Source: a virus. Taken from it: a stretch of DNA of 23,183 bases. This document shows positions 305 to 18,468 of the stretch, one piece after another (position 1 is the stretch's first letter; every line of letters begins with the position of its first letter). Position numbers and translations under genes: made by a program. Where the stretch lies: positions 1-23,183 of the IMG/VR virus record IMGVR_UViG_3300032579_000077; one strand, given 5' to 3'. Below the pieces are notes generated by a model. That model searched no databases. It was not told the origin of the DNA and saw only the letters and a program-made list of their open reading frames with translations.

Positions 305-595
305 GTGTCTAACGTAGTCGGCAGTATTGCTGAAGCCTTGGTAGCGGCAGCAGAAGCAAACAAATCTGAAGTTCTTGCGGCGCTGACTGCCGCAGAAGGT
401 GGCGTCGAAGCGGCCATCGTTGCTGTGATTCAAAACCTACCGATGCCAGGTGGCATCATTGGCATTGCGTTCCCCGCAATCAAGGGAAGCCTTGAGGCGG
501 AAGTGGCGAAGCTCGTGCAAGCCAACGGCCCGGAGATCGTGTTTGATTTCCTTGATGCCGAGGCGCACGCGCTTGCCCAGAAGCTGGGTGGCTAA
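305..595 (+). CDS. Hypothetical Ala-rich protein (96 aa)
   Basis: I do not recognise this protein. It starts with GTG at 305 behind a good Shine-Dalgarno sequence (GGAGGG at 291-296). The 96 residues are rich in Ala and predicted mostly helical, with a more hydrophobic Gly/Pro-containing middle (LPMPGGIIGIAFPAI, about residues 45-59) that could be a short membrane-inserting or buried segment. It is mildly acidic, unlike the strongly basic proteins that follow. Its stop overlaps the next start (TAATG), so the two are probably translationally coupled. Its place just after a lytic peptidase makes a holin or lysis-accessory role worth considering, but a single short apolar stretch is weak support. 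I am sure it is a gene, not of its function. Confidence 0.7.
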   Translation: MSNVVGSIAEALVAAAEANKSEVLAALTAAEGGVEAAIVAVIQNLPMPGGIIGIAFPAIKGSLEAEVAKLVQANGPEIVFDFLDAEAHALAQKLGG

Positions 596-909
596 TGCCA
601 GTACCCAAACCGCTTCCGAAAAAAGCATCTAAGGGCGCGAAAGCCAAGCGCATGGGTGACGTGATGCACGAGCTCAAGCAGGGCCCGCATCACAAGGAAC
701 GCAGCCACAAGCAAGAGGTGGCGATTGCGATGAAGTCTGCTGGCACTGCCACCAAGGGCAAGACGAAGATGAAGAAGTCTGCCAGCATGAAGAAGTCCGA
801 CACCAAGAAGATGTCTGCCAAACCCATGAAGGGCATGATGCCCAAGAACCCGATGAAGGGGGTGGGTAAGGGCATGAAGGCCATGATGCCAAAGGAAGAG
901 ATGATGTAA
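595..909 (+). CDS. Lys/Met-rich basic protein, DUF6496-like
   Basis: The 104-residue protein contains 26 Lys and 16 Met by my count. Residues 21-50 carry a pattern (MHELKQG followed by SHKQEVAIAMKSAG) that resembles, from memory, the DUF6496 family pattern 'MHEFK.G......SRKQAIAIALS.A', found in small phage and bacterial proteins of unknown function. After this the sequence becomes low-complexity with repeated KK, MK, PMKG and AMMPK units. The start ATG overlaps the previous stop and its own stop overlaps the next start. The high charge suggests nucleic acid or polyanion binding, perhaps in the virion; this is inference. The composition is shared with the genes at 909, 1579, 1942, 4638 and 4864, forming a cassette. 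Confidence 0.75.
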   Translation: MPVPKPLPKKASKGAKAKRMGDVMHELKQGPHHKERSHKQEVAIAMKSAGTATKGKTKMKKSASMKKSDTKKMSAKPMKGMMPKNPMKGVGKGMKAMMPKEEMM

Positions 910-1148
910 TGGCAAGCATGACCAAGAAGGACAAATCGCCGTCGGGTGGTTTGACTGAATCCGGGCGTCGCAAGTACAACAAGGAAGGGCATCACTTGCA
1001 GAAGCCTGTGACCAAGGTCAAGACGAAAAAGGACGCCTCTCGCCGGAAGAGTTTTTGCGCTCGCATGTCTGGCGTCAAAGGTCCGATGATGAAAGACGGC
1101 AAGCCCACTCGCAAAGCCCTCGCGCTACGGAAATGGAAGTGTAAATAA
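909..1148 (+). CDS. Small basic protein, DUF6321-like
   Basis: This 79-residue protein reads as one compact domain: GGLTESGRRKYNKE (about residues 13-26), then KPVTKVK, RRKSFCARMSGVKGPM and finally GKPTRKALALRKWKC. From memory this order (GLT..GR.KYN.E ... L..PV ... RR.SFCAR..G..GP ... PTRKALALRKW) is the hallmark of DUF6321, a family of small basic proteins of unknown function in phages and environmental contigs. Two Cys (in FCAR and WKC) could pair or bind metal. It is coupled on both sides by TAATG overlaps. It is strongly basic. Being a conserved ordered family, it is the best handle for finding related cassettes. Function unknown; family recognition fairly sure. Confidence 0.8.
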   Translation: MASMTKKDKSPSGGLTESGRRKYNKEGHHLQKPVTKVKTKKDASRRKSFCARMSGVKGPMMKDGKPTRKALALRKWKCK

Positions 1149-1567
1149 TGGCAAGTAGTATTTACGATCGCCCTGATTTCAAGGCGAACCCTTACGGCAA
1201 AGCCGTCAAGGGTGAAACCCCGGAACAAGCTAAAGCCCGCCAAAGAATGTTTTACACAACTCAGCGGCACATGTTGGAACGTCTTGCGATGGACGGCAAC
1301 AAAGAAGCCAACATGGAGTTGATGAAGATGGCAAGCCATTACGGAAAGGCTGACGTGTTGGCCGCCGCTATGGAACGCCAAAAACTTTATAACCAACAAT
1401 CTCGTGCTGGCGGTTCAGGGTATCCTGGTGCGCCAAAATCTACTCCACCTCCAACCCCTCGTGCGCTGACGCCAACTGATCCAGGTTATACTCAGAGCAG
1501 CGTCAACGCTGCTGACGCCGCGGCAGACATTGCGGCGTCGCGTCGCAAAAATATTTTAGGCTTATAA
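1148..1567 (+). CDS. Hypothetical protein, helical with Pro-rich linker (139 aa)
   Basis: I do not recognise this protein. Residues 1-30 are polar, residues about 35-85 look helical (including HMLERLAMDGNKEANMELM and ADVLAAAMERQKLYNQ), residues 86-115 form a Gly/Pro/Thr-rich linker (STPPPTPRALTPTDPG), and the C-terminus is a second helix (AADAAADIAASRRK). It starts at ATG 1148 inside the previous stop codon, so coupling is likely. It is the least biased protein of the local block and may be its only folded two-domain member. Its position among small basic proteins upstream of the terminase genes suggests packaging or virion association, without direct evidence. Confidence 0.7.
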   Translation: MASSIYDRPDFKANPYGKAVKGETPEQAKARQRMFYTTQRHMLERLAMDGNKEANMELMKMASHYGKADVLAAAMERQKLYNQQSRAGGSGYPGAPKSTPPPTPRALTPTDPGYTQSSVNAADAAADIAASRRKNILGL

Positions 1568-1578
1568 GGGACATCGAC

Positions 1579-1857
1579 ATGGCGTACGATCACGAACGTA
1601 TTCAACACTACATCGACGGCTTGATGAAATACGGAAACAGGGATACATCCAAGTCATCAATGCCCAGTCAATCTGCAAAAACCATGCCCAATTCCATGCC
1701 GAAAGCCATGCCAAAAATGGGCGGCATGAAGGGCGGTATGTCAAAGGGTAAGGCTCCGGCCAAATCTTCTCCTAAGGCAATGCCTAAGGCAATGCCTAAA
1801 GCGATGGCAAAACCTGCTGCGAAAAAAATGGCAAAGCCTAAAAAGGGCGGCAAGTAG
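1579..1857 (+). CDS. Lys/Met/Ala/Pro low-complexity basic protein
   Basis: The 92-residue product has an ordinary N-terminus (MAYDHERIQHYIDGLMKYGN) followed by some 70 residues of low-complexity basic sequence with repeated MPKA units (MPKAMPKAMAKP near residues 68-79) and a terminal KPKKGGK. The Shine-Dalgarno AAGGGA (1567-1572) lies seven bases before ATG 1579. The repeat looks like the C-terminal tails of histone H1-like or nucleoid-binding proteins, so DNA or RNA binding is plausible; this is composition-based inference. Near the 3' end the codons CCT AAA AAG GGC could allow -1 slippage into an acidic frame (see 1842-1967). The three imperfect 12-base repeats inside the gene may change in copy number. 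Confidence 0.7.
   Translation: MAYDHERIQHYIDGLMKYGNRDTSKSSMPSQSAKTMPNSMPKAMPKMGGMKGGMSKGKAPAKSSPKAMPKAMPKAMAKPAAKKMAKPKKGGK
1771..1806 (+). repeat. Tandem 12-base coding repeat, 3 copies
   Basis: CCTAAGGCAATG occurs at 1771-1782 and again at 1783-1794, followed by an imperfect third copy CCTAAAGCGATG at 1795-1806. Each unit encodes Pro-Lys-Ala-Met. It makes the basic low-complexity tail of the protein at 1579-1857 and could expand or contract by slippage. Confidence 0.85.
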
Positions 1858-1967
1858 AACCGTTTCTCGACCCTGAGAGTCCGTATAGTTTAGCGGACGA
1901 TGAGGTCTATATCCCCCACTACGACGAAGGGACGTGGGAAGATGGCAACGACGAAGACGGCGAGTAA
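1842..1967 (+). other. Acidic reading frame without start codon (possible -1 frameshift extension)
   Basis: In the frame one base behind the gene at 1579, an open frame runs from a stop at 1839-1841 to a stop at 1965-1967. It encodes a strikingly acidic stretch, for example DDEVYIPHYDEGTWEDGNDE, with codons typical of this phage. It has no ATG, GTG or TTG. The upstream gene crosses into it at AAA AAG (1840-1845), a place where -1 slippage could occur, which would give the basic protein an acidic C-terminal tail of about 40 residues. It overlaps the first 26 bases of the gene at 1942. The T before AAA AAG is not an ideal slippery heptamer, so this may also be a decayed gene or chance. Confidence 0.3.
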
Positions 1968-2178
1968 GGCAATGACCCATGGGGTCATGCACCACGCCAA
2001 GAAAGAAGACGGTGTTCGCTCGCCGCTCAAAGCCATGTGGCTTGAGCACGAGTCGAATCCGCCGAACCCGAAGCACGTAAGCAAGCATTCTCCCACTCCT
2101 GAAGGTGCCGCATCAGCCAAGCACAAGAAGGGCAAAGCCGATGCCAACCGTCGGAAGAAAAACAAGGGACGCTCGTAG
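1942..2178 (+). CDS. Small basic His/Lys-rich hypothetical protein (78 aa)
   Basis: The product begins MATTKTASKAMTHGVMHHAK and ends in a Lys/Arg-rich tail (KHKKGKADANRRKKNKGRS). I chose ATG 1942 because GGGAAG lies directly upstream and the sequence from there is coherent. An in-frame ATG at 1900 would add 14 residues, but that region reads more convincingly as the acidic frame at 1842-1967. The middle (SPLKAMWLEHESNPPNPKH) is more ordered, so a short folded core between basic tails is possible. I do not recognise the family. It belongs to the basic-protein cassette by composition and lies just before a terminator-like hairpin, so it may be the last gene of its transcript. Confidence 0.65.
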   Translation: MATTKTASKAMTHGVMHHAKKEDGVRSPLKAMWLEHESNPPNPKHVSKHSPTPEGAASAKHKKGKADANRRKKNKGRS

Positions 2179-2180
2179 GC

Positions 2181-2918
2181 GTGCCAGGTGATAGTAGCGG
2201 AGCCCTGGCAACGGGGCTCCGTTTTGGTTTGACTGACAGCGCGTTTGACTCGTGGTGGCGCAACGCGCTTCTGCCGGAAGATCAATCCGAGTTTGTCCAC
2301 ATCTACAACGGCAACAAGTTAGGCGCACGGTTTGTCTGTGCGCTGGACTATCTCTCGCGGGTTGACAACCGCAACACGACGCCTGACGTGATCGTCGAGG
2401 CGTACATGCTGGCAAAGAAAATCGACGTTGGTGCGGCCTCCGACATCTTGGTGCGGCAAAACGCGCAATACGTGTACGAAGACCCCAGCGTCAAGGTGTT
2501 GCTTGATCGCATTCGGTATCGCACGCGAGCGATTGCGATGGAGCGTGTGGCTGCGAAGACGTACGCCAAGGTTGAAGAATTGTACAGCCGTGCGGATGTT
2601 GAGGCTGACCCCGATGCAAAACTTGCCATCGAGAAAGTCGCCATCAACGCTGGCACCACGCTGTTGTCGATTGACGAACGCCAGCGGACGGCAGATGCCA
2701 AGCGTCGGGATGCAAAAGCGTTTCGTGAGGCGATGGAGACAAGCCGCCAGAACCAGCGTGATGCTTCGCAAGCGCCAACACTTGATGAGGCCAAGCATTT
2801 CATCTTGATGCTCAAGGAACAGTTTGGCCCGGAGGCTATCGCGCAGATGTTCCAGGAAGAATTGCCGCCGGTGCCACCGGAAGTGATTGACGCGGATGAC
2901 AGCGACACGAGTCATTGA
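2181..2918 (+). CDS. terS: Probable terminase small subunit
   Basis: The 245-residue protein precedes and overlaps the large terminase gene by 23 bases, the usual place for the DNA-recognition subunit of the packaging motor. I recognise no specific family motif. The start at GTG 2181 has AAGGGA 11 bases upstream. Residues about 70-170 are helical with a probable coiled coil (RAIAMERVAAKTYAKVEELY and following), common in the oligomerising core of small terminases. Residues about 170-195 are rich in Arg, Lys and Gln, and the acidic Pro-rich C-terminus (PPVPPEVIDADDSD) could contact the large subunit. A terminator-like hairpin at 2198-2230 sits in the first codons, so a TTG start at 2229 (protein beginning TDSAFDSWWRN after the initiator) is an alternative. 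The function is inferred mainly from position. Confidence 0.6.
   Translation: MPGDSSGALATGLRFGLTDSAFDSWWRNALLPEDQSEFVHIYNGNKLGARFVCALDYLSRVDNRNTTPDVIVEAYMLAKKIDVGAASDILVRQNAQYVYEDPSVKVLLDRIRYRTRAIAMERVAAKTYAKVEELYSRADVEADPDAKLAIEKVAINAGTTLLSIDERQRTADAKRRDAKAFREAMETSRQNQRDASQAPTLDEAKHFILMLKEQFGPEAIAQMFQEELPPVPPEVIDADDSDTSH
2198..2230 (+). terminator. Intrinsic-terminator-like hairpin at the start of the small terminase gene
   Basis: CGGAGCCC (2198-2205) pairs perfectly with GGGCTCCG (2214-2221) around an 8-base loop, and is followed by TTTTGGTTT (2222-2230). An 8-bp GC-rich stem plus a T-rich tract is the form of a rho-independent terminator. It would end, or weaken, transcription of the upstream small-gene block. 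It lies within the reading frame starting at GTG 2181, which either means the real start is the TTG at 2229 or that the hairpin tunes terminase expression. Confidence 0.5.
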
Positions 2919-4605
2919 GTGGGGTCGCGGCTTGCGCCGCGACTTCCTCATGCGAAACTTCTTCACGTTTGCCAAGCACTCGGGCATTTGTCCTGACATC
3001 AACGAGGCCGAGTACGGCGACATCTGTGAGTTCTTAGAGTCGTGTATTCCGAACACGCCCAAGGTCGTGGCGTGGCGGTTAGAGACGGGTCGCATCCACC
3101 AGCCACCCGGTCGGTACTGCCAGCAGTATAACGACTTCCAGATGCCGCGACGTACGTTCAAGACCAGCCTTGCAAAGGCGTTGTGTGCGTACGCGCAGGA
3201 GCTCGACCCGGACATTCGCATTGTGTTGGGCCGTGCAACAGCGGACATGGCCGAGTCCACGCTTGAGGGTTTGAAAGATGACTTGACGCGTAACGAGACG
3301 TTGCGTCAGGTGTTCGGCAACATCAAGGGTCGGTACAGCACGTGGACCACGCAAAAGATCACGCGCTCAGATCGGAGCCCTGGTATCAAGGAGCCGACGG
3401 TCGACACGGTTGGGTTAGGCCAGTCGCAGACTGGTCAGCATCCTGACTTCGTGATCTTGGACGACTTGGTGCATGAGGGCAACTTCGAGTCGGTGACGCA
3501 GATGTATGCCGCTCGCAAGTTGGTCGACTCGTACGACCCGATTCTGGAGTCGTGGGGAAGTCTGTTGTTGATGGGCACCCGTTGGGGTGACAACGACATT
3601 CACGGTTATGTTGCCGAGCGCGACAACATCCTGGAGGACCAGGGCAAGTCTCCGAAGTTCCGGCATTTCATCTTGGGTGCCTACAAAGACATCGGCACCG
3701 GGGAGTTGCGGTTCCCGACGGTATTGCCGAAGGCGTTCCTTGATCGCCAGCAAGACATCATCGACCCGAAAATGTTCTCCGCCTGGTACATGAACAAGGC
3801 TCGTGCCGAGGGTGAGGACATCTTCACGATGGCCTACATCCAGTACTTCGATGGCGAGATGGTGACGGGTCCGTTTGCCCAACTTTCGCTATCGGAAGGT
3901 GAACCCTTGCGAGCGCGGTTTGGGAAGATGTTCCCGATCTCGACGGTGCTCACGTGCGACCCTGCGCCCACGGTGGGTCCGCGTTCGGACTTCACGGGTG
4001 TGGTGGTAGCCGGGTTTGACGAGCACGCCAACTACTGGGTGTTGCACGCCGATGAGTTCAAGAAGTTACCGTTTGACCGCTTGCAATACATTCTCTACCT
4101 TTGCAGACAATACGACCCAGCCACGATTGCTTTAGAGAACGGCGACTTGGACGCGGTGTTGTTGCAGATGCGGTTAGACGAGATGGGTTTGCGGGGCAAG
4201 GTGGTCAAGTTCGACCCGAAGATGGACCGCAAGAAGATCACGGCCACGGGGTTATCCCCGCGTGGGCGCACGAGTAAAGCGTCTCAGATCGAGGCAATGG
4301 AGCCGACGCTGCGGGCGCGGCGGGTATTCTTTGCGCGTGGCACGACGGCCCCGCTGATTCGGCGGTTGCAGTCGTATCCGTACGTCGACCACGACGACGT
4401 GTTGGATGCCTTCAGCATGTTGAAGGCGTACGAGTCTCCGTCGAGTCGTCGGGCGATGGACGACCCTGAGAAGATATTTGAAATGCAAGAGAAACGAGAG
4501 TATGCTTTAGAGGGGTTACGGTTCGACGGCACCGACCTCGAAGAGCCATCTTTGATGGCCAGGACTCCGTTCAAGAAGAAACCCGGAGCCTGGGCTGGAA
4601 GGTAG
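2896..4605 (+). CDS. terL: Terminase large subunit
   Basis: This is the packaging motor: an N-terminal ATPase that drives DNA into the head through the portal and a C-terminal RNase H-fold nuclease that cuts the concatemer. In the 569-residue product I see a Lys/Arg-rich Walker A variant PRRTFKTS (about 84-91), Walker B FVILDD (about 185-190) and the coupling motif GTRWGDND (about 227-234). The nuclease acidic residues appear in VLTCDPAP (about 351-358), IALENGD (about 411-417) and DHDDVLDAF (about 498-506). The length is normal for the family. I chose ATG 2896; a TTG at 2887 in the same frame would add three residues. It overlaps the small terminase gene by 23 bases, indicating coupling. All catalytic motifs look intact. 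Confidence 0.95.
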   Translation: MTATRVIEWGRGLRRDFLMRNFFTFAKHSGICPDINEAEYGDICEFLESCIPNTPKVVAWRLETGRIHQPPGRYCQQYNDFQMPRRTFKTSLAKALCAYAQELDPDIRIVLGRATADMAESTLEGLKDDLTRNETLRQVFGNIKGRYSTWTTQKITRSDRSPGIKEPTVDTVGLGQSQTGQHPDFVILDDLVHEGNFESVTQMYAARKLVDSYDPILESWGSLLLMGTRWGDNDIHGYVAERDNILEDQGKSPKFRHFILGAYKDIGTGELRFPTVLPKAFLDRQQDIIDPKMFSAWYMNKARAEGEDIFTMAYIQYFDGEMVTGPFAQLSLSEGEPLRARFGKMFPISTVLTCDPAPTVGPRSDFTGVVVAGFDEHANYWVLHADEFKKLPFDRLQYILYLCRQYDPATIALENGDLDAVLLQMRLDEMGLRGKVVKFDPKMDRKKITATGLSPRGRTSKASQIEAMEPTLRARRVFFARGTTAPLIRRLQSYPYVDHDDVLDAFSMLKAYESPSSRRAMDDPEKIFEMQEKREYALEGLRFDGTDLEEPSLMARTPFKKKPGAWAGR

Positions 4606-4618
4606 ACTCTCCCGCCGT

Positions 4619-4633
4619 CCGATGATAAGGTGG
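4619..4633 (+). promoter_or_regulatory. Shared motif CGATGATAAGGTGG upstream of the second basic-gene pair
   Basis: The gap between the large terminase and the next gene carries GATGATAAGGT (4621-4631), differing at one base from GATGATAGGGT at 8721-8731. Part of it, AAGGTGG, also serves as the Shine-Dalgarno for ATG 4638, so the match may be partly due to that. A regulatory role is inferred only from recurrence in three gaps. Confidence 0.25.
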
Positions 4634-4637
4634 CACC

Positions 4638-4862
4638 ATGAAGACCGGAAAACCCTCGGGAATGAAAGCTGGCCGCATGGTCCGCGCTCATTACGAAATG
4701 AAAACCGAGCATCACAAGATTGAATCGCTTGGCAAAGAGATGATGCAGGGCGGTTCGTACAGCCATTCCAACGAGCACGACATCGCTCACCTCATGGGTC
4801 AGGGCGGGTCGCAGGCGCATACCGATCATATCCGTTCGCTCAAAGACATGATGGGGCAGTGA
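4638..4862 (+). CDS. Met/His-rich small hypothetical protein (74 aa)
   Basis: By my count this 74-residue protein has 9 Met and 8 His. The N-terminus is basic (MKTGKPSGMKAGRMVRAHYE), and the middle and C-terminus are helical with His spread through it (HSNEHDIAHLMGQ, AHTDHIRSLKDMMGQ). The Shine-Dalgarno AAGGTGG ends five bases before ATG. I do not recognise a family. It shares its composition with the genes at 595-2178 on the other side of the terminase genes, so the basic cassette appears split by terminase. Metal binding by His/Met or DNA binding are possible roles; neither is shown. It is followed one base later by a similar gene, and the two likely act together. Confidence 0.65.
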   Translation: MKTGKPSGMKAGRMVRAHYEMKTEHHKIESLGKEMMQGGSYSHSNEHDIAHLMGQGGSQAHTDHIRSLKDMMGQ

Positions 4863-4863
4863 G

Positions 4864-5130
4864 ATGGTATCCAAGCACAGCATGAAGGCCAAGTCCCACA
4901 AGGGTGGTGGGATTCCGCGTTTGCACATCAGCGGGATGGATACGCTCGGTAGCCTCCCGGTTGGTGGCATGTTCAAGCAGCACCACCACGGTGAGCAGCC
5001 CGGTCACAAGACCGCGAAGCATAACGACAAGTCTGCGCCGGTGCATCACCACAAAGGTGAGAAGACGATGGCGCACAAGCACAAAGGCATGGACGGAAAA
5101 GCCATGTATCACAAGGGCAAGAAAGGCTAA
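4864..5130 (+). CDS. His/Lys-rich small basic protein (88 aa)
   Basis: The 88-residue product has 14 His and 16 Lys by my count, with two HHH clusters (KQHHHGEQPGHK and APVHHHKGEK) and a His/Lys-alternating end (MAHKHKGMDGKAMYHKGKKG). A short more hydrophobic stretch (GIPRLHISGMDTLGSLPVGG, about residues 16-35) may be a folded core or an interaction segment. It begins one base after the preceding stop. The clusters are what one expects of a protein binding transition metals or polyanions; whether it does either is unknown. It is the most extreme member of the basic cassette. I see no signal peptide or membrane segment. The gene is probably real, because its codon use and spacing match its neighbours. 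Confidence 0.65.
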   Translation: MVSKHSMKAKSHKGGGIPRLHISGMDTLGSLPVGGMFKQHHHGEQPGHKTAKHNDKSAPVHHHKGEKTMAHKHKGMDGKAMYHKGKKG

Positions 5131-5143
5131 CGCGGGAACGCTT

Positions 5144-5212
5144 ATGGTACCGCCCGCCAGCGGTGGCGCTCCCGGTCCTTCCCCGGTGAGCGCCTTCTGC
5201 TTTGAAGCCTAA
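5144..5212 (+). CDS. Possible 22-aa leader peptide overlapping the portal start
   Basis: ATG 5144 opens a 22-codon frame (MVPPASGGAPGPSPVSAFCF then EA) whose stop at 5210-5212 lies just past the portal's TTG start at 5202. It fills most of the 71-base gap. Translation of it would bring ribosomes to the weak portal start, so coupling is possible. No strong Shine-Dalgarno precedes it and the peptide is not recognised; it may be chance. Confidence 0.25.
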   Translation: MVPPASGGAPGPSPVSAFCFEA

Positions 5213-7271
5213 GGAAGAAGACATCCCCTTACATGGGGGTGTCGAGACACATCAGCCCAAGCACGCCACTGTTCGGTTTGCTTCTGCGTCGAAAGATAAG
5301 AAGCTCACTGATAGCAAGTGGAATTTGCTTTCCAACGACCTCTACCAGACGGTCTTGGCTTCGCTGTCTGCGCGTGGCGCATTGAATGCGAACCTCAAGG
5401 AGTGGTCTGACGCCTACGACATGGTGACGTCCGAGAAGGACTGGCCGTTTGTCAACTCATCGAATTTGGCGTTGCCCTATACCGCAGGTCAGTTAGAGTC
5501 GTTACATGCCTATCTCGCGGGGCAGGTCTTCACCCCGCGTCCATTCATCGTGACAGGGCGGAACACGGACGCCGTGCGTACCGCGCCAATGGTAGAGAAC
5601 TTCTACAATGGCGAGTGGCAACGACTGCGTTCGGATGGGTCTTCGTATTTCCAAAAGGCGATTCAACTCAACCAGTTGGCGTTACGTGATGGCGTAGGCA
5701 TTCTGGAAGTGTTGTGGACTCGTCGTCGTCATCGTCGGGAAGTCGAGATGTCGGTCCCGATGACGGACGAAAACGGGCAGGTGGTGTTTGGTCCAGACGG
5801 TCAGCCGCAATGGGATGTGCGTCGTGATACGGTCGACATCTTCGTCAAGGATTACCCCGAGTGGCGGTGCGTACCGCTCAAAGAATTCATCCTCATCCCG
5901 GACGAGGCTCCTTCAATCGAAGAGGCTGCGGGTGTCGCGTGCGTGGAGTGGCTCTACGAAGATGACCTTGATCGGATGGTTCGGGCTGGTCTACTGGACT
6001 CCGACGAAGTGGAGAAAGCCCTTCGTTACGACGAGAACGGAACCAGTGACGTAGCCTCCGACCCAGAGGGCACGTACGATAAGTCTGCGTCATACCAGAT
6101 TGGGTTAGGCCAGGGGCAGGGCAGTATGTCCAGCCCGTTCTTCAAGAACCGTGGCCCGCTCAAGGTCTGGCGTATCCACAGCCGTCAGTTTGACATGAAC
6201 GAAGACGGCATGACGGAAGAGAACATTTTCTGGTTGCACGAGTTGAGCCAGAAGATGTTGGGTTGGGTGCCGTACGATTACGCCGACGGTCGCCGTCCGT
6301 TCTTCTCGTACTGCCCGTTCCCGCGTGCGGACAACTTTTACGGGTACAGCCTGGTCGAGCGGTTAGCGGGCATCGAGACAGAGTTGCGTGCCACGCACAA
6401 CGCCCGCAACGACCGTATCCAGTTTGGGTTGTTCCCGCCGATGGCCGTGCCCACGGGGTCAGAGATATTGACTCGTAAGGGCCGATGGTATCCTGGCGAA
6501 ATGATCGAGACGGACTTCGTGGGTGCAGACCCAGCCGTCAAGATCATGCAGATCGCCGACGTTCCGATCTCGTCGTGGCAAGAAGAGAGTGCGCTTAAGC
6601 AATACGGCACGGAGTACACCGGGCTGAACATGCCGATGATTGGAGCGCAGTCATCTGGGAAGCGTAGCGCGACGGAGATGCGTCAGCAGAACTCTGCCGC
6701 AGGTACGCGCTTGGGCTTGCTAGCCACCCGTCTCCGGGTCGCGCTTGGCCAGATTATCAACTTCACTCATGCGCTGAACAAGCAATACTTGCAGACTGAC
6801 CCCGAGACGATGGTGGGTCAGCAGACGATGAAAATCGACCTTCAGACGCTCGCGAAGGACTACCTCATCGGGGTGGCTGGCGCGAGTGACCCGATTGATT
6901 CGATCACTCGTCGGCAAGAGTCGTTGGCGTTCTTCCAGATTGCGATGAGCATCCCGTGGATTGCTCAGTCTCCGCTCAAGCAATATTACTGGGTGAAGAT
7001 GCTGGGTGATTCTTTCAACCGGCAGGACCTTCAGCTTCTCATCGGCACTGAGCAGGAAGCACAGCAACGGGAAGAGCAACAGCAACAACAGGCGCAAACA
7101 CAGGCGCAACAAGGTGGTCCTCCTGGCGGTGGGCAACCTGGCCAGCAACAGCCTCAGCGTCCCCCGCAACCGCAGGGGCAACCGGGTAGGCCCGCTGGTC
7201 AAGCGCCACAAGTAGCGCGTCCACAACAGCAACCTCGTCCGCAAATGCGTATGCCTATGGGACGACGATAG
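5202..7271 (+). CDS. Portal protein
   Basis: The portal is the dodecameric ring at one head vertex through which the terminase pumps DNA and to which the adaptor binds. The identification rests on size (689 residues), position right after the terminase genes and before the scaffold and capsid genes, and portal-like sequence in the first 200 residues (for example WPFVNSSNLALPYTAGQLES, then QLNQLALRDGVGILEVLW). A central region with many aromatic residues includes FSYCPFPRADNFYGYSLVE, a pattern typical of podovirus portals. From about residue 616 the C-terminus is a Gln/Pro/Gly-rich low-complexity tail ending in Arg/Met residues, probably disordered. The start is TTG 5202, the first possible start after an in-frame stop at 5187, with GGTGAG upstream. 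Function is likely; the exact family is not assigned. Confidence 0.85.
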   Translation: MKPKEEDIPLHGGVETHQPKHATVRFASASKDKKLTDSKWNLLSNDLYQTVLASLSARGALNANLKEWSDAYDMVTSEKDWPFVNSSNLALPYTAGQLESLHAYLAGQVFTPRPFIVTGRNTDAVRTAPMVENFYNGEWQRLRSDGSSYFQKAIQLNQLALRDGVGILEVLWTRRRHRREVEMSVPMTDENGQVVFGPDGQPQWDVRRDTVDIFVKDYPEWRCVPLKEFILIPDEAPSIEEAAGVACVEWLYEDDLDRMVRAGLLDSDEVEKALRYDENGTSDVASDPEGTYDKSASYQIGLGQGQGSMSSPFFKNRGPLKVWRIHSRQFDMNEDGMTEENIFWLHELSQKMLGWVPYDYADGRRPFFSYCPFPRADNFYGYSLVERLAGIETELRATHNARNDRIQFGLFPPMAVPTGSEILTRKGRWYPGEMIETDFVGADPAVKIMQIADVPISSWQEESALKQYGTEYTGLNMPMIGAQSSGKRSATEMRQQNSAAGTRLGLLATRLRVALGQIINFTHALNKQYLQTDPETMVGQQTMKIDLQTLAKDYLIGVAGASDPIDSITRRQESLAFFQIAMSIPWIAQSPLKQYYWVKMLGDSFNRQDLQLLIGTEQEAQQREEQQQQQAQTQAQQGGPPGGGQPGQQQPQRPPQPQGQPGRPAGQAPQVARPQQQPRPQMRMPMGRR

Positions 7272-9745: not shown

Positions 9746-10708
9746 ATGCCTCAAGGTATTACTAGCACTCGTACCTCCTATAACGCCCAAACGAAGGCGA
9801 TGGAGTTGGCGTTTATCAACGCCAGCACCACCATCCCCAAACAGTACCCCAAGATTTTCAACGAGTGGACGACGGACCCGAAGCGTTCGATTGCCACGGT
9901 TGAACCCATTGCGGAACTCGGTTTGCTCCGGGGTCGCACTGAGGGTGGCGCGTTTGCGGTGGACAACCCGGTTGAACTCATCCCGGTGTCGTTCACCTAT
10001 TCGACCTACGGCCTCACGTCTTACGTGACGGAAGAAGCCCAGCTCGAAGACCCGCTCAACCTCATGGCGATGCTTCCGCAGATGCTTGCGAACAGCGAAC
10101 GCTACACGCAAGACATCACCATCTGGAACACGTTCAACTTCTCGTTCTCCAGCCTCGTGCCAGGCAGCGACGGTCTTCCGCTCTGCTCGTCAGCGCATCC
10201 GCTGGGTCCGATTGTTACGTCGACTGGTGTGAGCTCGCTCACGGGCCTCACGTTCAGCAACTATCTCTCGACCGCTCCGCTCACGCCGGAATCGTTCCGT
10301 CAAGCGGAAATCCTGTTCGAGACCTTGCTGACCGACCGTGGTCTGCCGGATCGTCGCACGCCGAAGTACCTCGTCTGCGGCCCGCAGTTGGCCAAGACGG
10401 CGCAGGAAGTCCTCGGTGCGCGTCTCGCTCCGTACACCAACCAAAACCAGCCGAACACGGCGGCGGACCAAGCCGAGATCATGGTCGTCCGTTACATCAC
10501 CAGCCCGACGGCGTGGTGGCTCTGTGCGGGACCTGGTGACTGGGCGCACGGTGGCGACAGCAACAGCCTTGTTGTTGGTTACAAGTGGCAGTCGCGCGTC
10601 AAGGCGTGGTATGACAATCCGACGGGCAACTACGGTATCCGTACGTCGTACCGGAATACCTATGGCTTCGTGAACTGGCGCGGTATCGTTGGTTCGAGCG
10701 GCTCGTAA
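9746..10708 (+). CDS. Major capsid protein (HK97-fold, Mu gpT-like)
   Basis: This protein forms the icosahedral shell. The 320-residue length and N-terminal amphipathic region (AFINASTTIPKQYPKIFNEW) fit HK97-fold capsid proteins. A central segment, DGLPLCSSAHPLG (about residues 141-153), matches the 'G.pLfs.aHpl' signature seen in capsid proteins of the Mu gpT-like group, and the following ALTPESF-like region (TAPLTPESFRQAEILFETLL) continues this pattern. The end (YGIRTSYRNTYGFVNWRGIV) is typical of the last beta strands of such proteins. AGGAGA lies eight bases before ATG. It follows the presumed decoration and scaffold genes as expected. There is no obvious N-terminal delta domain, consistent with a separate scaffold. 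Assignment is strong; the subfamily is from memory. Confidence 0.9.
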   Translation: MPQGITSTRTSYNAQTKAMELAFINASTTIPKQYPKIFNEWTTDPKRSIATVEPIAELGLLRGRTEGGAFAVDNPVELIPVSFTYSTYGLTSYVTEEAQLEDPLNLMAMLPQMLANSERYTQDITIWNTFNFSFSSLVPGSDGLPLCSSAHPLGPIVTSTGVSSLTGLTFSNYLSTAPLTPESFRQAEILFETLLTDRGLPDRRTPKYLVCGPQLAKTAQEVLGARLAPYTNQNQPNTAADQAEIMVVRYITSPTAWWLCAGPGDWAHGGDSNSLVVGYKWQSRVKAWYDNPTGNYGIRTSYRNTYGFVNWRGIVGSSGS

Positions 10709-13525: not shown

Positions 13526-15775
13526 GTGTCATTACCAACGTATTACGGCAACGTATCCGGCGGCACGATTTCCGGGACTACCGGAACATTCAGCAGTGTT
13601 GTTGCTGCCGCGTCATTGACGTTGGGTACCCCGTTAGATGTGATCTACGGTGGCACGGGCACCACGAGCCCTGCGTTGACTGCAGGCACGGGTATATCGT
13701 TGAGCGGGTCGTGGCCGAATTACACGATCTCTGCAACGAATAGCGGCACAGTCACATCGGTCACGGCTTCAAGTCCGTTGGCATCAAGTGGTGGCACAAC
13801 CCCCAACATTTCGTTTACGGGTATCCTTGGCGTTTCCAATGGTGGTACGGGGACGTCTAGCCCTTCGTTGGTAAGCGGCACAAACACGAGCGTTAGCGGA
13901 ACGTGGCCCGCGCAAGCGGTGAACGTGACGTCGTTTCCAGCATCGAGCCTTACTGGTAGCGTTAGTCTCACAACCCAGGTGTCGGGCATTTTGCCCGTCG
14001 CGAATGGCGGTAGCGGGACATCTACGCCCAGTCTTGTAGCCGGGTCAAACGTCAGCATTACAGGTTCGTGGCCGAATCAAACGATCAACGCGACGGCCTT
14101 CCCGACGACGTACACGCGCACGACGTTCACTGCGACAAGCGGGCAAACTAGTTTTACCGTTACGTACACCGTCGGTTCGGTTCAGGTATATCTCAACGGT
14201 GTGTTCTTGGCGACAACCGATTACACGGCAACGAGCGGGACAGCAATCGTGTTGGCAACGGGAGCCAACACGGGCGACATCGTGGACGTTGTTTCGCTTG
14301 GCACGTTGTCGGGCAGTATCAACCTTGCAACTCAAGTAATAGGGACGCTTGCCATTGCGAATGGCGGCACAGGCCAGACATCTGGCACGGCTGCATTCAA
14401 TGCCCTATCTCCGATCACCAGCACTGGTGATTTGATTATTGGGAATGGTACCAATAGCGCAACACGTTTGGCGATTGGCGCGAACACTTACGTTCTGACA
14501 AGTAACGGAACGACGGCAACATGGGCGGCTCCGTCGGGAGGCGGAACGACAACCAACTCGCTGACGATCAACAGCAGTGGCACAGGCGGTGCCAGTCCTC
14601 AATCGTTCAACGGTAGTTCTGCCGTCACGATTTCATACAATACTGTGGGTGCGTCCCCGCTTGCAGGTAGCACGTCTCTAACCACTGTCGGCACAATCAC
14701 GACAGGGACCTGGAATGCGGGCTCGGTAACGACAAGCGGTTCATTTGTTGCAGGTTCCAGCACCTACGGTCCGACAAGCGCAACGGTCAATGGCAATATT
14801 ACCGCCAGTGAAGTTGTTACCTTCCAAGTGTCGAGCAGTTCCGGGAACCTGATTATCAATTCGGGCAATAGTTCTGCATCCGTTGTTGCGCTCAATTACA
14901 ACAATGGTGCGACGGGCGGTTTTGCGGTTGGAGACGGAAGCACCGGGTATTACGGCACAATTACGTCAACAGGATTGCATGCCGGGTCAAGCAATTACGG
15001 TTTAACAAGCGCAAGCGTAGCCGGGTCTATTACTCCGGGATATAGCAGCGCGGTAGGTACGTCGTCGATCTACAGCGGCACGGGAACCCCGGCTTTTTCG
15101 GCTCCGTCAGGGTCGTTGTATCTTTCGTACAGCGGTACTGGTGGCGGATTAGTTTACTACAACTCTTCTACTGCTGGCACGAGCGGAACGTCATGGGCCG
15201 CTTTCGGTGCTTCGGTGCAAGAACAATACGCAGTATTTACTGCAAGCACGACGTGGACGTGCCCAGCAGGAGTAACAAAAGTGTATGCGTTTGTTGTAGG
15301 CGCTGGTGGTGGCGGCGATGGTAATGATAACACGGGCGGTGGCGTCGGTGGGCAAGCGTATGGGTATTACACCGTTAGCCCTGGAACGGGATACACGATA
15401 ACCGTTGGAACCGGTGGAACAGGTAGCACGTCAGGAAGTGGCACAAGCGGTAACACCAGTTCTTTTGCTTCGTTCTGTTCTGCTACTGGCGGTGGTGCTG
15501 GCACGAGTGGTGGCTCTGGATCAAATGGTTCCGGGTCAAGTGGAAATCTACGAAACAATACTGCAGCAACATCTTTGCAAGACACCTTTGCTCAATTTAC
15601 TGGCAATAATTTTTATGGTTTTTATAGCCTCATCACAACTTCCGCAACTGTTTGGTCAAACACGCTTTCTGATAGCACGTCTGGTGCTGCCGAACTCGTG
15701 TCTCCTGGCGCTGGTGGCTACATCTACGGCACCGGCGGCGTTGGTGGCGTGGTCGCGCTTTGGTGGGTAGGATAA
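13526..15775 (+). CDS. Tail fibre 1, NGGTG repeats with Gly-rich C-terminus
   Basis: The 749-residue product is a modular fibre that likely binds the host surface. It starts with GTG 13526 after a good GGAGGG (13513-13518). The N-terminal part holds repeats of the form (N/Y)GG(T/S)GT..P(S/A)L..G.(N/T).S..G(S/T)WP.(Q/Y) (about residues 40-190). Residues about 195-262 match a common phage-fibre module (GQTSFTVTYTVGSVQVYLNG, then DYTATSGTAIVLATGA). Another repeat follows (about 275-345), then a trimeric-fibre-like beta region to about 565. The C-terminus (WTCPAGVTKVYAFVVGAGGG then Gly/Ser-rich) is a polyglycine-type tip, perhaps the receptor-binding end. Ser/Thr/Gly dominance is typical of beta-helical trimers. 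It shares modules with fibre 2. The attachment site to the virion is not identified. Confidence 0.85.
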   Translation: MSLPTYYGNVSGGTISGTTGTFSSVVAAASLTLGTPLDVIYGGTGTTSPALTAGTGISLSGSWPNYTISATNSGTVTSVTASSPLASSGGTTPNISFTGILGVSNGGTGTSSPSLVSGTNTSVSGTWPAQAVNVTSFPASSLTGSVSLTTQVSGILPVANGGSGTSTPSLVAGSNVSITGSWPNQTINATAFPTTYTRTTFTATSGQTSFTVTYTVGSVQVYLNGVFLATTDYTATSGTAIVLATGANTGDIVDVVSLGTLSGSINLATQVIGTLAIANGGTGQTSGTAAFNALSPITSTGDLIIGNGTNSATRLAIGANTYVLTSNGTTATWAAPSGGGTTTNSLTINSSGTGGASPQSFNGSSAVTISYNTVGASPLAGSTSLTTVGTITTGTWNAGSVTTSGSFVAGSSTYGPTSATVNGNITASEVVTFQVSSSSGNLIINSGNSSASVVALNYNNGATGGFAVGDGSTGYYGTITSTGLHAGSSNYGLTSASVAGSITPGYSSAVGTSSIYSGTGTPAFSAPSGSLYLSYSGTGGGLVYYNSSTAGTSGTSWAAFGASVQEQYAVFTASTTWTCPAGVTKVYAFVVGAGGGGDGNDNTGGGVGGQAYGYYTVSPGTGYTITVGTGGTGSTSGSGTSGNTSSFASFCSATGGGAGTSGGSGSNGSGSSGNLRNNTAATSLQDTFAQFTGNNFYGFYSLITTSATVWSNTLSDSTSGAAELVSPGAGGYIYGTGGVGGVVALWWVG

Positions 15776-15778
15776 AAC

Positions 15779-16027
15779 ATGGCATACGCATTGGTTGACC
15801 CAAGTACTCAAGTCATTGAAACCCCCGCCCAAAAAGGGCCGCCGTATGTTCCTCCGGTGTATTACCCCAACTCGGCACGGGTTGCACAGGTAGAGCCGGA
15901 TCAGAACAGCACGTTCCCGGTGGCGTCTCCGCTTGAGTGGATTGAGTGTCCGGACACGGTTGTTGCGGATCAGTGGTACTACAACACCTCAACGTCGGCG
16001 TTCGTGCAGATTGGTGGAACGTCATGA
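15779..16027 (+). CDS. Small fibre accessory protein (82 aa)
   Basis: This protein lies between two long fibres and is coupled to the second (ATGA overlap at 16024). It begins MAYALVDPSTQVIETPAQKG and later reads FPVASPLEWIECPDTVVADQ then WYYNTSTSAFVQIGG. The WI.C...V..D.WYY ending resembles small proteins next to fibre genes in aquatic phages. Like the protein at 19363 it ends in a Tyr-Tyr/Trp and Ser/Thr strand pattern similar to that of tail-fibre assembly proteins. A chaperone or fibre-attachment role is possible but I cannot confirm it. A Pro-rich segment (PPYVPPVYYP, about residues 21-30) may be a peptide-binding arm. I am confident it is expressed. Confidence 0.55.
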   Translation: MAYALVDPSTQVIETPAQKGPPYVPPVYYPNSARVAQVEPDQNSTFPVASPLEWIECPDTVVADQWYYNTSTSAFVQIGGTS

Positions 16028-18468
16028 GTATCCCACGCAACTTTAGTATTCTTGCCGAGAACGCCAACAGTAGTGGCGTGTTGCAGATCGCAGGCGGTGG
16101 TACTGGAACCACAACGCCTAGCCTTGTCGCGGGCACCAACGTCACGATAACGGGCACATGGCCCAATCAGACAATCAATTCCACAGGCAGCGGAGGCAGC
16201 GGTGTCAGCAGCGTAACCGCATCGAGCCCGCTTGCATCGAGCGGCGGCACGACACCAAATATCTCGTTCACGGGCACGCTTGCGGTTGCGAATGGCGGCA
16301 CCGGAGCGGCAACGCTGACCGGGTACGTTTATGGTAACGGCACGTCGGCAATGACGGCATCGACCACAATTCCGACGACGGCCCTTAGCGGCACAATTAC
16401 GAATGCGCAGCTGGCAAATAGCTCGCTGACAGTCAACGGCACCGCGATCAGCCTTGGCGGCAGTGGAACGGTTACTGCAGCGGCAGGCACCCTGACCGGG
16501 ACCACGCTCAATAGTACTGTTACCGGATCAAGTCTCACTTCGGTCGGAACGATCACGTCCGGCACCTGGAACGGCGGAATTATTCCCGTTGCATACGGCG
16601 GCACAGGCACCTCGTCGCCAGGCCTTATCCAAGGTGCGAACATTACTATTAGCGGCTCTTGGCCTAATCAAACGATTGCGGCGACGGGTAGCACGGGCGT
16701 TTCGAGCGTTACGGCATCAAGCCCGCTCGCCTCAAGCGGCGGATCAACGCCAAACATTTCGTTTTCGGGAATTCTCGGCATTTCTAACGGCGGTACGGGG
16801 ACCGCCAGCCCTGCTTTGGTAAACGGGACGAATACCAGCGTTAGTGGGACGTGGCCGGCTCAAGCGGTGAACATTACTGCGTTTCCGGCATCAAGTCTCA
16901 CCGGGACCATCAGCCTGACAACCCAAGTGTCCGGCACGTTGCCGGTTGCGAATGGCGGCACCGGGGTCACGACATCGAGCGGTGCGAGCTCCGTGGTGTT
17001 GCGCGATTCAAGCGCGAACATTACGACAAACGCATTGTTCGAAGGATACACGAACCAGGCGGCAGGCACTGCGATTACGCTGACCGCATCGTCAACGCCA
17101 AACTGGATTATCACCGGGTCTGGTGGTCAGACCATCACGTTGCCGAACGCGACGACGTTGCCAATCGGCGCGCAATTCACGTTCAACAATAACCAAACTA
17201 GCGGCACTATCACCGTCAACAATACTACATCGACCCTCGTGGTATCGGTTGCGTCGGGTGCATTTGCTACGGTCACGTTGTTGAGCAATGGCTCATCGGC
17301 TGGCACCTGGGACCTTCACTTTAGCGTTCCGTCAAACACGCAATGGTCAACGAACACGTTCCAATACCCTGGGACCATTACGCAAGCGACGTGGAACGGC
17401 GTTGGTATTGGGACGTACTACGGGGGCACAGGTCTTAGTGGATCAACCCCATTTACAAGCGGCGGAGCGGTCTACGCATCGAGCTCAAGTGCACTAACTA
17501 CGGGCACCCTTCCCGTTGCGTCAGGCGGCACCGGAGCGACTACGCTGACCGGGTACTTGATTGGGAACGGGACCTCGGCGGTTACAGCATCGACGACCAT
17601 TCCGACATCCGCATTGAGCGGCACCATTTCAAACACACAGCTTGCCAACAGCTCCGTTACCGTAAATGGAACGGCGATCAGCCTCGGCGGAAGTGGAACG
17701 GTTACGGCGGCGGCAGGAACGCTGACAGGGATTACCCTCAATAGCACGGTTACGGGATCGAGCCTTACGTCTGTCGGCACGATTACGAGCGGAACGTGGA
17801 ACGGCACAACGATTGCGATTGCCAACGGTGGGACCGGGCAAACCAGCAAGTCTGCGGCGTTCAATGCTCTTTCGCCAATAACGGCGACGGGCGACCTCAT
17901 TATCGGCAACGGCACCAATTCAGCCACAAACCTTGCCATCGGTGCAAACACCTACGTGCTGACCAGCAACGGCACGACGGCATCGTGGGCCGCGCCAACG
18001 GGCGGTGCATCGCTTTCTGCAAACAACACCTGGACAGGGACGCAGACATTCTCCGGAACGTCAAGCGTGTTGGCCGCGACGTTTGCCAACATGGCCGAGA
18101 ACATCACGGTCAGCGCCACGGCAGCCACGGGCACAATCAACCTGTATACGGCTACGCAGTCGATTCTTTATTACACGACAAACGCGACGGGTAACTTTAC
18201 CATCAACGTCGCGCATTCGTCAGGCACAACGCTCAACACGGCGATGGCGACGGGTACGGCTATTACCGTCGTATTCATGAACACCAACGGCACGACGGCG
18301 TACTATTGTTCTGCAATGAATATCGACGGCACGGCGCAGACGGTCAAGTGGCTGGGCAACATCGCCCCTGCGGCGGGCAACCCGTCGTTGATTGACTTCT
18401 ACACTTTCACCATCATCAAAACGGGTTCGGCCACCTACACGGTATTCGGCTCGATGACGACGTACTGA
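16024..18468 (+). CDS. Tail fibre 2, NGGTG repeats with conserved C-terminal head
   Basis: This 814-residue protein is a second long fibre. ATG 16024 (MSIPRNFSILAENANSSG) overlaps the previous stop as ATGA with GGTGGA upstream; a longer frame from 15946 is only overlap with the previous gene. NGGTG-type repeats with TPSLVAGTNVTITGTWPNQ units fill much of the first 330 residues. Residues about 335-465 form a second module (GGQTITLPNATTLPIGAQFT, then AGTWDLHFSV). A 95-residue block at about 90-184 is repeated at about 500-594 (see repeats). The C-terminus (about 668-814, GTINLYTATQSILYYTTNAT through DFYTFTIIKTGSATYTVFGS) matches a beta domain that ends many aquatic phage fibres and structural proteins. 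A host-binding or shaft role is likely. Why two fibres exist is not known. Confidence 0.85.
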   Translation: MSIPRNFSILAENANSSGVLQIAGGGTGTTTPSLVAGTNVTITGTWPNQTINSTGSGGSGVSSVTASSPLASSGGTTPNISFTGTLAVANGGTGAATLTGYVYGNGTSAMTASTTIPTTALSGTITNAQLANSSLTVNGTAISLGGSGTVTAAAGTLTGTTLNSTVTGSSLTSVGTITSGTWNGGIIPVAYGGTGTSSPGLIQGANITISGSWPNQTIAATGSTGVSSVTASSPLASSGGSTPNISFSGILGISNGGTGTASPALVNGTNTSVSGTWPAQAVNITAFPASSLTGTISLTTQVSGTLPVANGGTGVTTSSGASSVVLRDSSANITTNALFEGYTNQAAGTAITLTASSTPNWIITGSGGQTITLPNATTLPIGAQFTFNNNQTSGTITVNNTTSTLVVSVASGAFATVTLLSNGSSAGTWDLHFSVPSNTQWSTNTFQYPGTITQATWNGVGIGTYYGGTGLSGSTPFTSGGAVYASSSSALTTGTLPVASGGTGATTLTGYLIGNGTSAVTASTTIPTSALSGTISNTQLANSSVTVNGTAISLGGSGTVTAAAGTLTGITLNSTVTGSSLTSVGTITSGTWNGTTIAIANGGTGQTSKSAAFNALSPITATGDLIIGNGTNSATNLAIGANTYVLTSNGTTASWAAPTGGASLSANNTWTGTQTFSGTSSVLAATFANMAENITVSATAATGTINLYTATQSILYYTTNATGNFTINVAHSSGTTLNTAMATGTAITVVFMNTNGTTAYYCSAMNIDGTAQTVKWLGNIAPAAGNPSLIDFYTFTIIKTGSATYTVFGSMTTY
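16291..16575 (+). repeat. 95-codon duplication in fibre 2, copy 1
   Basis: This 285-base block encodes NGGTGAATLTGYVYGNGTSA and onward to GTITSGTWNG. It is repeated at 17521-17805 (offset 1,230 bases) with no insertion or deletion; by eye 85 of 95 residues match. At the DNA level the copies differ at many third positions, so this is an old, selected duplication. Confidence 0.8.
17521..17805 (+). repeat. 95-codon duplication in fibre 2, copy 2
   Basis: This is the second copy of the 285-base block at 16291-16575, starting SGGTGATTLTGYLIGNGTSA. Substitutions are mostly conservative (V/L, T/S, L/V), with changes such as Y/I and M/V, consistent with a structural repeat of the fibre shaft. It precedes a third unit type (AIANGGTGQTSKSAAFNALS) also found in fibre 1. 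Confidence 0.8.

Follow-up and report, generated by a model that had tools for sequence, protein, structure and literature searches.

Small basic proteins around the terminase genes of an uncultured virus: a candidate set of head-associated, genome-binding proteins

The window analysed here is the whole of IMG/VR virus record IMGVR_UViG_3300032579_000077, a stretch of 23,183 bases from an uncultured bacterial virus, in which genes for six small proteins (A to F, in gene order) lie on either side of the terminase genes and one of them, protein B, carries the domain DUF6321. We put at roughly 0.5 the probability that these are basic proteins which associate with the head and bind either its interior or the genome packaged in it. 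The parts of this reading differ in strength: head association of DUF6321 is well supported, charge and position suggest DNA binding and late timing, and for A, C, D, E and F position and composition point to both head association and DNA binding, whilst DNA condensation by the proteins of the block is plausible. A row of basic proteins beside packaging genes has not previously been described as a set, and it is not peculiar to the virus of the window. An earlier note on this DNA had drawn attention to the six proteins; its observation is partly confirmed and its interpretation partly supported.

Protein B, which the earlier note had called DUF6321-like, is a true DUF6321 protein, matching the Pfam profile at E=1.5e-24 with 86.8 bits (curated cut-off 28.5) over residues 9-76 and nearly all 72 profile positions, and sharing 58-68% identity with family members from aquatic phages. 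The core of the domain (R-SFCARM...TRK-LAL-KW-C, with two Cys) contains positions that are invariant across 43 sequences, B among them. The family has no assigned function in Pfam and is unnamed in the literature searched, and in the window it adjoins largely orphan partners. DUF6321 was found in 514 of 50,697 named phage records, mainly from phages of Synechococcus, Prochlorococcus and Pelagibacter, and IMG/VR has at least 590 stretches with it. The family looks phage-borne, since a collection of bacterial and archaeal genomes yielded only 20 contigs with the domain, mostly metagenome-assembled and many with the same small basic neighbours.

The link to packaging and the head that had been proposed from the window extends to unrelated phages, whose head or packaging modules include DUF6321 and DUF6496 genes. 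In T7-like phages the DUF6321 gene sits between the genes for scaffold and major capsid protein, in T4-like cyanophages between those for the small and large terminase subunits, and in other annotated phages after the capsid gene or upstream of a terminase; in two environmental lineages (L034 and L047), one of which has the large terminase (TerL) family of the window, it is found two or three genes before TerL. In P-RSM4 the DUF6321 gene is designated T4-GC119. A PHROG scan of 59 large neighbours from 28 non-redundant loci returned mostly head, packaging and connector families. Co-occurrence with small basic open reading frames (ORFs) was tested with simple gene calls of our own on 87 loci collapsed to these 28. 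Small basic ORFs made up 22 of the 53 immediate DUF6321 neighbours, against 8.7 expected with labels shuffled within loci and 11.0 with labels shuffled among small ORFs only, and neither scheme gave 22 in 2000 trials (p=0.0005, a value bounded by the trial number). Within two genes of DUF6321 there were 34, against 20.0 under the shuffle among small ORFs only.

Homologues of B are also listed in mass-spectrometry proteomes of purified cyanophage virions. Unique peptides reported for virions of the T4-like cyanophage S-CREM2 numbered 4 for ORF137, 8 for ORF136 and 7 for ORF160 (PMC10665884 Table 3); in the genome record ORF137 has a C-terminal DUF6321 domain (Pfam E=3.5e-10), ORF136 is basic (isoelectric point (pI) 10, 17% Lys) and ORF160 has the CYKVK module described below. 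In S-SCSM1 the protein of ORF29, which combines KRWF, CYKVK and DUF6321 in 517 amino acids (aa), is labelled 'virion protein' in the GenBank record. This label very probably reflects mass spectrometry, because the record holds 48 such labels vs 45 proteins found by mass spectrometry (PMC9602691) and because all three non-structural virion proteins named in the S-SCSM1 paper also bear it (PMC9602691). Earlier publications did not interpret these virion data in this way. The earlier note had held that co-occurrence at chance level, or absence from virions together with a lack of DNA or metal binding, would refute its proposal; for DUF6321 the outcome was the reverse, since co-occurrence exceeds chance and homologues are listed in virions.

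The small neighbours of DUF6321 fall into recurrent families, among them YANI (GLYANIHAKRKRIKAGSGEKM), HHKHM (HSxHHxxKHMxxM), CYKVK (CYKKVKxRYKVFPSAYASG) and KRWF (KRWFxEKWVDVxxGKPCGR). KRWF matches DUF5872, and where CYKVK and KRWF genes adjoin, the DUF5872 profile covers both, running through a stop codon. As standalone modules they are 35-100 aa long, contain no enzyme and have neighbours that differ from phage to phage. In the loci examined, CYKVK and DUF6321 are fused in 56 ORFs, which belong to related T4-like phages and do not count as independent fusions, and KRWF, CYKVK and DUF6321 are fused in 2. Single cases join YANI to DUF6321, to DUF6496 and to HHKHM, and DUF3008 was also found fused to DUF6321. 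The YANI-DUF6496 protein is encoded upstream of terS, terL and portal genes. Elsewhere in phages the DUF6496 gene adjoins the portal gene, sits between terL and the head-tail connector gene, or separates portal from capsid genes; of two further DUF6496 loci, one is unannotated and one is less clear. Because modules fuse with both domains and DUF6496 genes adjoin head and packaging genes, DUF6321 and DUF6496 belong to one interchangeable module set, of which the window has adjacent genes. The two were found together in 0 of 50 fragmentary records, a search in which control genomes were also empty, so that absence is unproven. A candidate fusion of DUF6321 to a capsid protein in locus L082 (PHROG 696) was set aside, the match spanning half the profile and the surroundings not being a capsid operon.

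Other genes were seen around DUF6321. Several loci, L012:464-685 and relatives, encode an HNH endonuclease of 73 aa (Pfam HNH_3, E=1e-8) upstream of it, and in the cultured Vibrio phage 5P1a a 51-aa Lys/Met-rich protein, similar in composition to C, follows the DUF6321 gene (L010:4115-4270). In S-SZBM1 (OL473597) a basic protein of 707 aa, ORF194 (L121:1493-3616), is encoded between terS and the DUF6321 gene; it has an S-adenosylmethionine (SAM) lyase domain (E=6.8e-8) and matches DUF3008 weakly, which suggests counter-defence cargo in this gene position. Right after terS of the same phage comes the gene for an acidic protein of 87 aa, ORF195 (L121:1228-1491), which has the third highest exponentially modified protein abundance index (emPAI) of the virion proteome (PMC9146016 Table 1).

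Fused DUF6321 proteins have a recurrent junction. In 66 of 70 distinct fused proteins, a count inflated by related sequences, the conserved Trp at the start of the domain is preceded at a distance of 2-5 residues by a Glu, and in 63 this Glu is followed by Gly, Asp, Ala or Ser; residues further upstream vary, and three standalone DUF6321 forms with the same start have no junction Glu. The T4 prohead protease cleaves after Glu before Gly, Ala or Ser. The junction resembles this pattern, apart from Asp, which is outside the T4 rule, and processing is a lead only; Glu-Gly/Ala/Ser sites exceeded shuffles in 2 of 4 polyproteins, an inconsistent result.

The block and its boundaries in the window are as follows, with net charge computed as K+R-D-E.

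595..909, + strand: protein A, 104 aa, 25% Lys, 15% Met, net charge +21, C-terminal K/M-rich repeats
Residues 9-57 of protein A: weak DUF6496-like segment
909..1148, + strand: protein B, 79 aa, DUF6321 (PF19846), net charge +20, invariant Cys C50 and C78
1148-1567, + strand: gene for a protein of 139 aa, pI 9.7, not Lys-rich; start-stop overlap with B
1579..1857, + strand: protein C, 92 aa, K/M/P-rich, KAMP tandem repeats, net charge +17
1942..2178, + strand: protein D, 78 aa, Lys/His-rich, net charge +12; stops 2 bp before terS
2181..2918, + strand: putative terS, from its position before TerL only; best family match E=0.13
2887..4605, + strand: TerL, large terminase subunit (PHROG 38, E=3e-55)
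4638..4862, + strand: protein E, 74 aa, Met 12%, His 11%, net charge +2, not Lys-rich
4864..5130, + strand: protein F, 88 aa, 14 His, 16 Lys, net charge +12; begins 1 bp after E
5202..7271, + strand: portal / head-tail adaptor (PHROG 332, 1216), the downstream boundary of the block

The gene order runs from two ORFs that look like lysis genes through A, B, 1148-1567, C, D, putative terS, terL, E and F to the portal gene, and more head genes follow, including a match to a major head protein at 9746-10708. All six ORFs of the earlier note are present, D beginning at the ATG at 1942, with GGGAAG just upstream; the mechanical ORF begins at 1900. Its six-gene cassette left out a seventh gene within the block, 1148-1567. 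Its description of coupled starts applies to part of the row: start-stop overlaps join 305-595 to A, A to B and B to 1148, and E/F and D/terS are spaced by 1-2 bp, but C and D are uncoupled from the genes before them, with gaps of 11 and 84 bp.

Residue counts given earlier for the first and last proteins were exact (26 Lys and 16 Met in the 104 residues of A, 14 His and 16 Lys in the 88 of F). The shared, extremely basic composition that they were taken to illustrate is borne out for A, B, C, D and F and not for E, which has ordinary Lys content. Of 81 control ORFs, 60-140 aa long and taken from other parts of a T4-like cyanophage genome, none attains the Lys fraction or the charge per residue of A, B, C, D and F; for E, the Lys fraction is reached by 32% of them and the charge by 21%, and only its Met and His contents are extreme. 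Similarly, 0-2% of 99 small ORFs that are 2.5 kb or more away from DUF6321 on its own contigs attain the Lys fraction of A, B, C, D and F. In A and C, part of this composition stems from tandem repeats of 12 to 18 bp. Judged by synonymous codon preference, the sense frame is favoured in A, B, D, E and F. The 1148-1567 gene and C have codon scores below those of the core head genes, with more AAA for Lys, which may reflect recent acquisition.

The other proteins of the block have few relatives. Against Pfam DUF6496 (PF20106; cut-off 24 bits) protein A gave no match even at E<=10, and a model built from seven phage DUF6496 proteins gave it a full score of 5.1 bits and a best domain score of 12.5. 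The DUF6496-like label that it had been given, short of the Pfam cut-off, is weakly supported, because only 1 in 1000 composition-preserving shuffles equals that full score. Like a DUF6496 protein, A has a VMHELKQG...KQEVAIAMKSAG segment, and its gene follows lysis-like genes, a position shared with the DUF6496 gene of Vibrio phage pA2SJ1; where a DUF6496 protein would be about 50 aa long, A has a long K/M-rich tail. No Pfam family matches C, D, E or F, and their PHROGs matches are at chance level. Relatives of A and D are absent from IMG/VR and the named phages searched, and there E and F have relatives, 100% identical, in two other contigs of the same virus only; for C, relatives were sought in Pfam, PHROGs and the module models only, and none was found. 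Shared ancestry of all six was rejected, the module models being clear for B only and giving noise for D and 1148-1567. Both sister contigs (IMGVR 3300031884_000089 and 3300032605_001089) end at window positions 2724-2808, just upstream of terL, so A to D are known from the contig of the window alone; strain variation in the basic block, repeats or assembly may be the cause. Further downstream, at 13526-18468, the window encodes two long Gly/Ser/Thr-rich proteins (749 and 840 aa) that repeat similar segments, as tail or fibre proteins do.

DUF6321 is, with fair confidence, predicted to be a small three-helix domain: the AlphaFold2 model has helices at 17-25, 40-54 and 68-75, with a predicted local distance difference test (pLDDT) score of 82 and a predicted template modelling (pTM) score of 0.55. 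A fold search of the PDB with this model gave no match, and a term search of the main text of a cryo-EM paper on P-SCSP1u also gave none. A function based on fold was considered and dropped, the good matches in a viral structure library being DUF6321 itself, unnamed proteins, or larger phage proteins over the same domain. Because the core is conserved, it argues for a specific partner in addition to charge.

The block may be a local form, in part specific to its lineage, of a modular set of small basic proteins that is widespread in the head or packaging operon of aquatic tailed phages. Its basic proteins would be made together with head proteins and would enter or line the head at assembly, where their Lys-rich segments would bind packaged DNA or another polyanionic surface. 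The bound proteins would help to load, neutralise or protect the genome, and might leave with it at ejection. Several points weigh against this reading. To our knowledge, most tailed phages package DNA without condensing proteins. In the window four of the proteins (C, D, E and F) are orphans, one of which, E, is not basic, and in Microcystis phage LMM01, an exception to the usual position, DUF6321 stands alone among helicase and replication genes (L098:3980-4243). The virion data all concern fused T4-like forms and none of them a standalone form as in the window. Coverage of S-CREM2 ORF137 was low at 4.1% (PMC10665884), caesium chloride (CsCl) preparations may contain carry-over, and the list of 30 proteins detected in S-SZBM1 virions includes neither ORF192, which carries DUF6321, nor the basic ORF194 (PMC9146016 Table 1).

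Presence in virions would also fit capsid-assembly or cement factors, which would bridge acidic scaffold, portal or capsid surfaces in prohead assembly and would not act on DNA. The gene position between scaffold and major capsid genes in T7-like phages speaks for such factors, as do the predicted three helices and a core (SFCARMSG, ALALRKW) more specific than non-specific DNA binding needs. The PDB, however, returned no fold match to any cement protein, and extreme Lys content together with variable neighbours suggests that charge outweighs one shape; we hold this alternative to be unlikely. Less probable still are carriers of host-takeover or counter-defence functions, basic modules that would load cargo into the head for injection with the DNA, like internal head or polyvalent proteins. 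The multidomain cyanophage proteins, the lyase domain of ORF194 next to the DUF6321 gene of S-SZBM1 and the presence of a SAM hydrolase in S-CREM2 virions (PMC10665884) favour it, but ORF194 went undetected in S-SZBM1 virions, and neither the standalone modules nor the block of the window includes an enzyme.

Charge like that of ribosomal and nucleoid proteins, and the place of DUF6321 among replication genes in LMM01, would suit late-made binders of the host nucleoid, transcription machinery or ribosome that are not part of the virion; the head-module position in most phages and the mass-spectrometry detection in virions make this very improbable. Lowest of all we place the metal-binding set that the earlier note had offered beside DNA condensation, in which His-rich E and F and Cys-bearing B would bind Zn, Cu or Fe, either to stabilise the virion or to deliver the metal. 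The 14 His of F, the 8 of E, the two invariant Cys of DUF6321 and the recurrent HHKHM and two-Cys modules of relatives agree with it; against this, A, C and D have no Cys, relatives of E and F are confined to the same virus, no metal-binding family in Pfam was matched by any of A-F, and DUF6321 had no fold match in the PDB; metal binding by the block is unsupported.

Known systems offer partial parallels to head-associated, genome-binding basic proteins. The internal head proteins IPI, IPII and IPIII of T4 are small, basic, packaged in the head and cut after Glu by the prohead protease; the Glu-Gly/Asp/Ala/Ser junction of fused DUF6321 proteins may be a counterpart of that cleavage site, no sequence relation being shown. 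Ascovirus P64 binds and condenses viral DNA (PMC6163548), and it and the small basic genome-condensing proteins of other eukaryotic double-stranded DNA viruses (PMC6163548) are cationic, modular and virion-resident, as the proteins considered here would be. They differ in that their condensation of DNA has been measured, in lacking a sequence relation, and in that phage heads are filled by a motor. DUF5872 (PF19197) is a single annotated protein in an algal virus, its halves being separate CYKVK and KRWF genes beside DUF6321 in some phages; it is absent from the window. A bolder proposal, which we think doubtful, is that DUF6321, DUF6496, the DUF5872 halves, DUF3008, YANI and HHKHM are an interchangeable kit forming a chromatin-like complement of the packaged genome, encoded as separate genes by the terminase or capsid genes in podophages and the window, and in T4-like cyanophages as a single polyprotein that the prohead protease would cut.

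About 1% of the phage records searched contain DUF6321, as do hundreds of viral contigs from the environment, mainly those of viruses of marine picocyanobacteria and SAR11. Its links to the head module, to other basic modules and to virions give several families without a function a testable role together, and they raise the question of whether some tailed phages package their DNA along with basic proteins.

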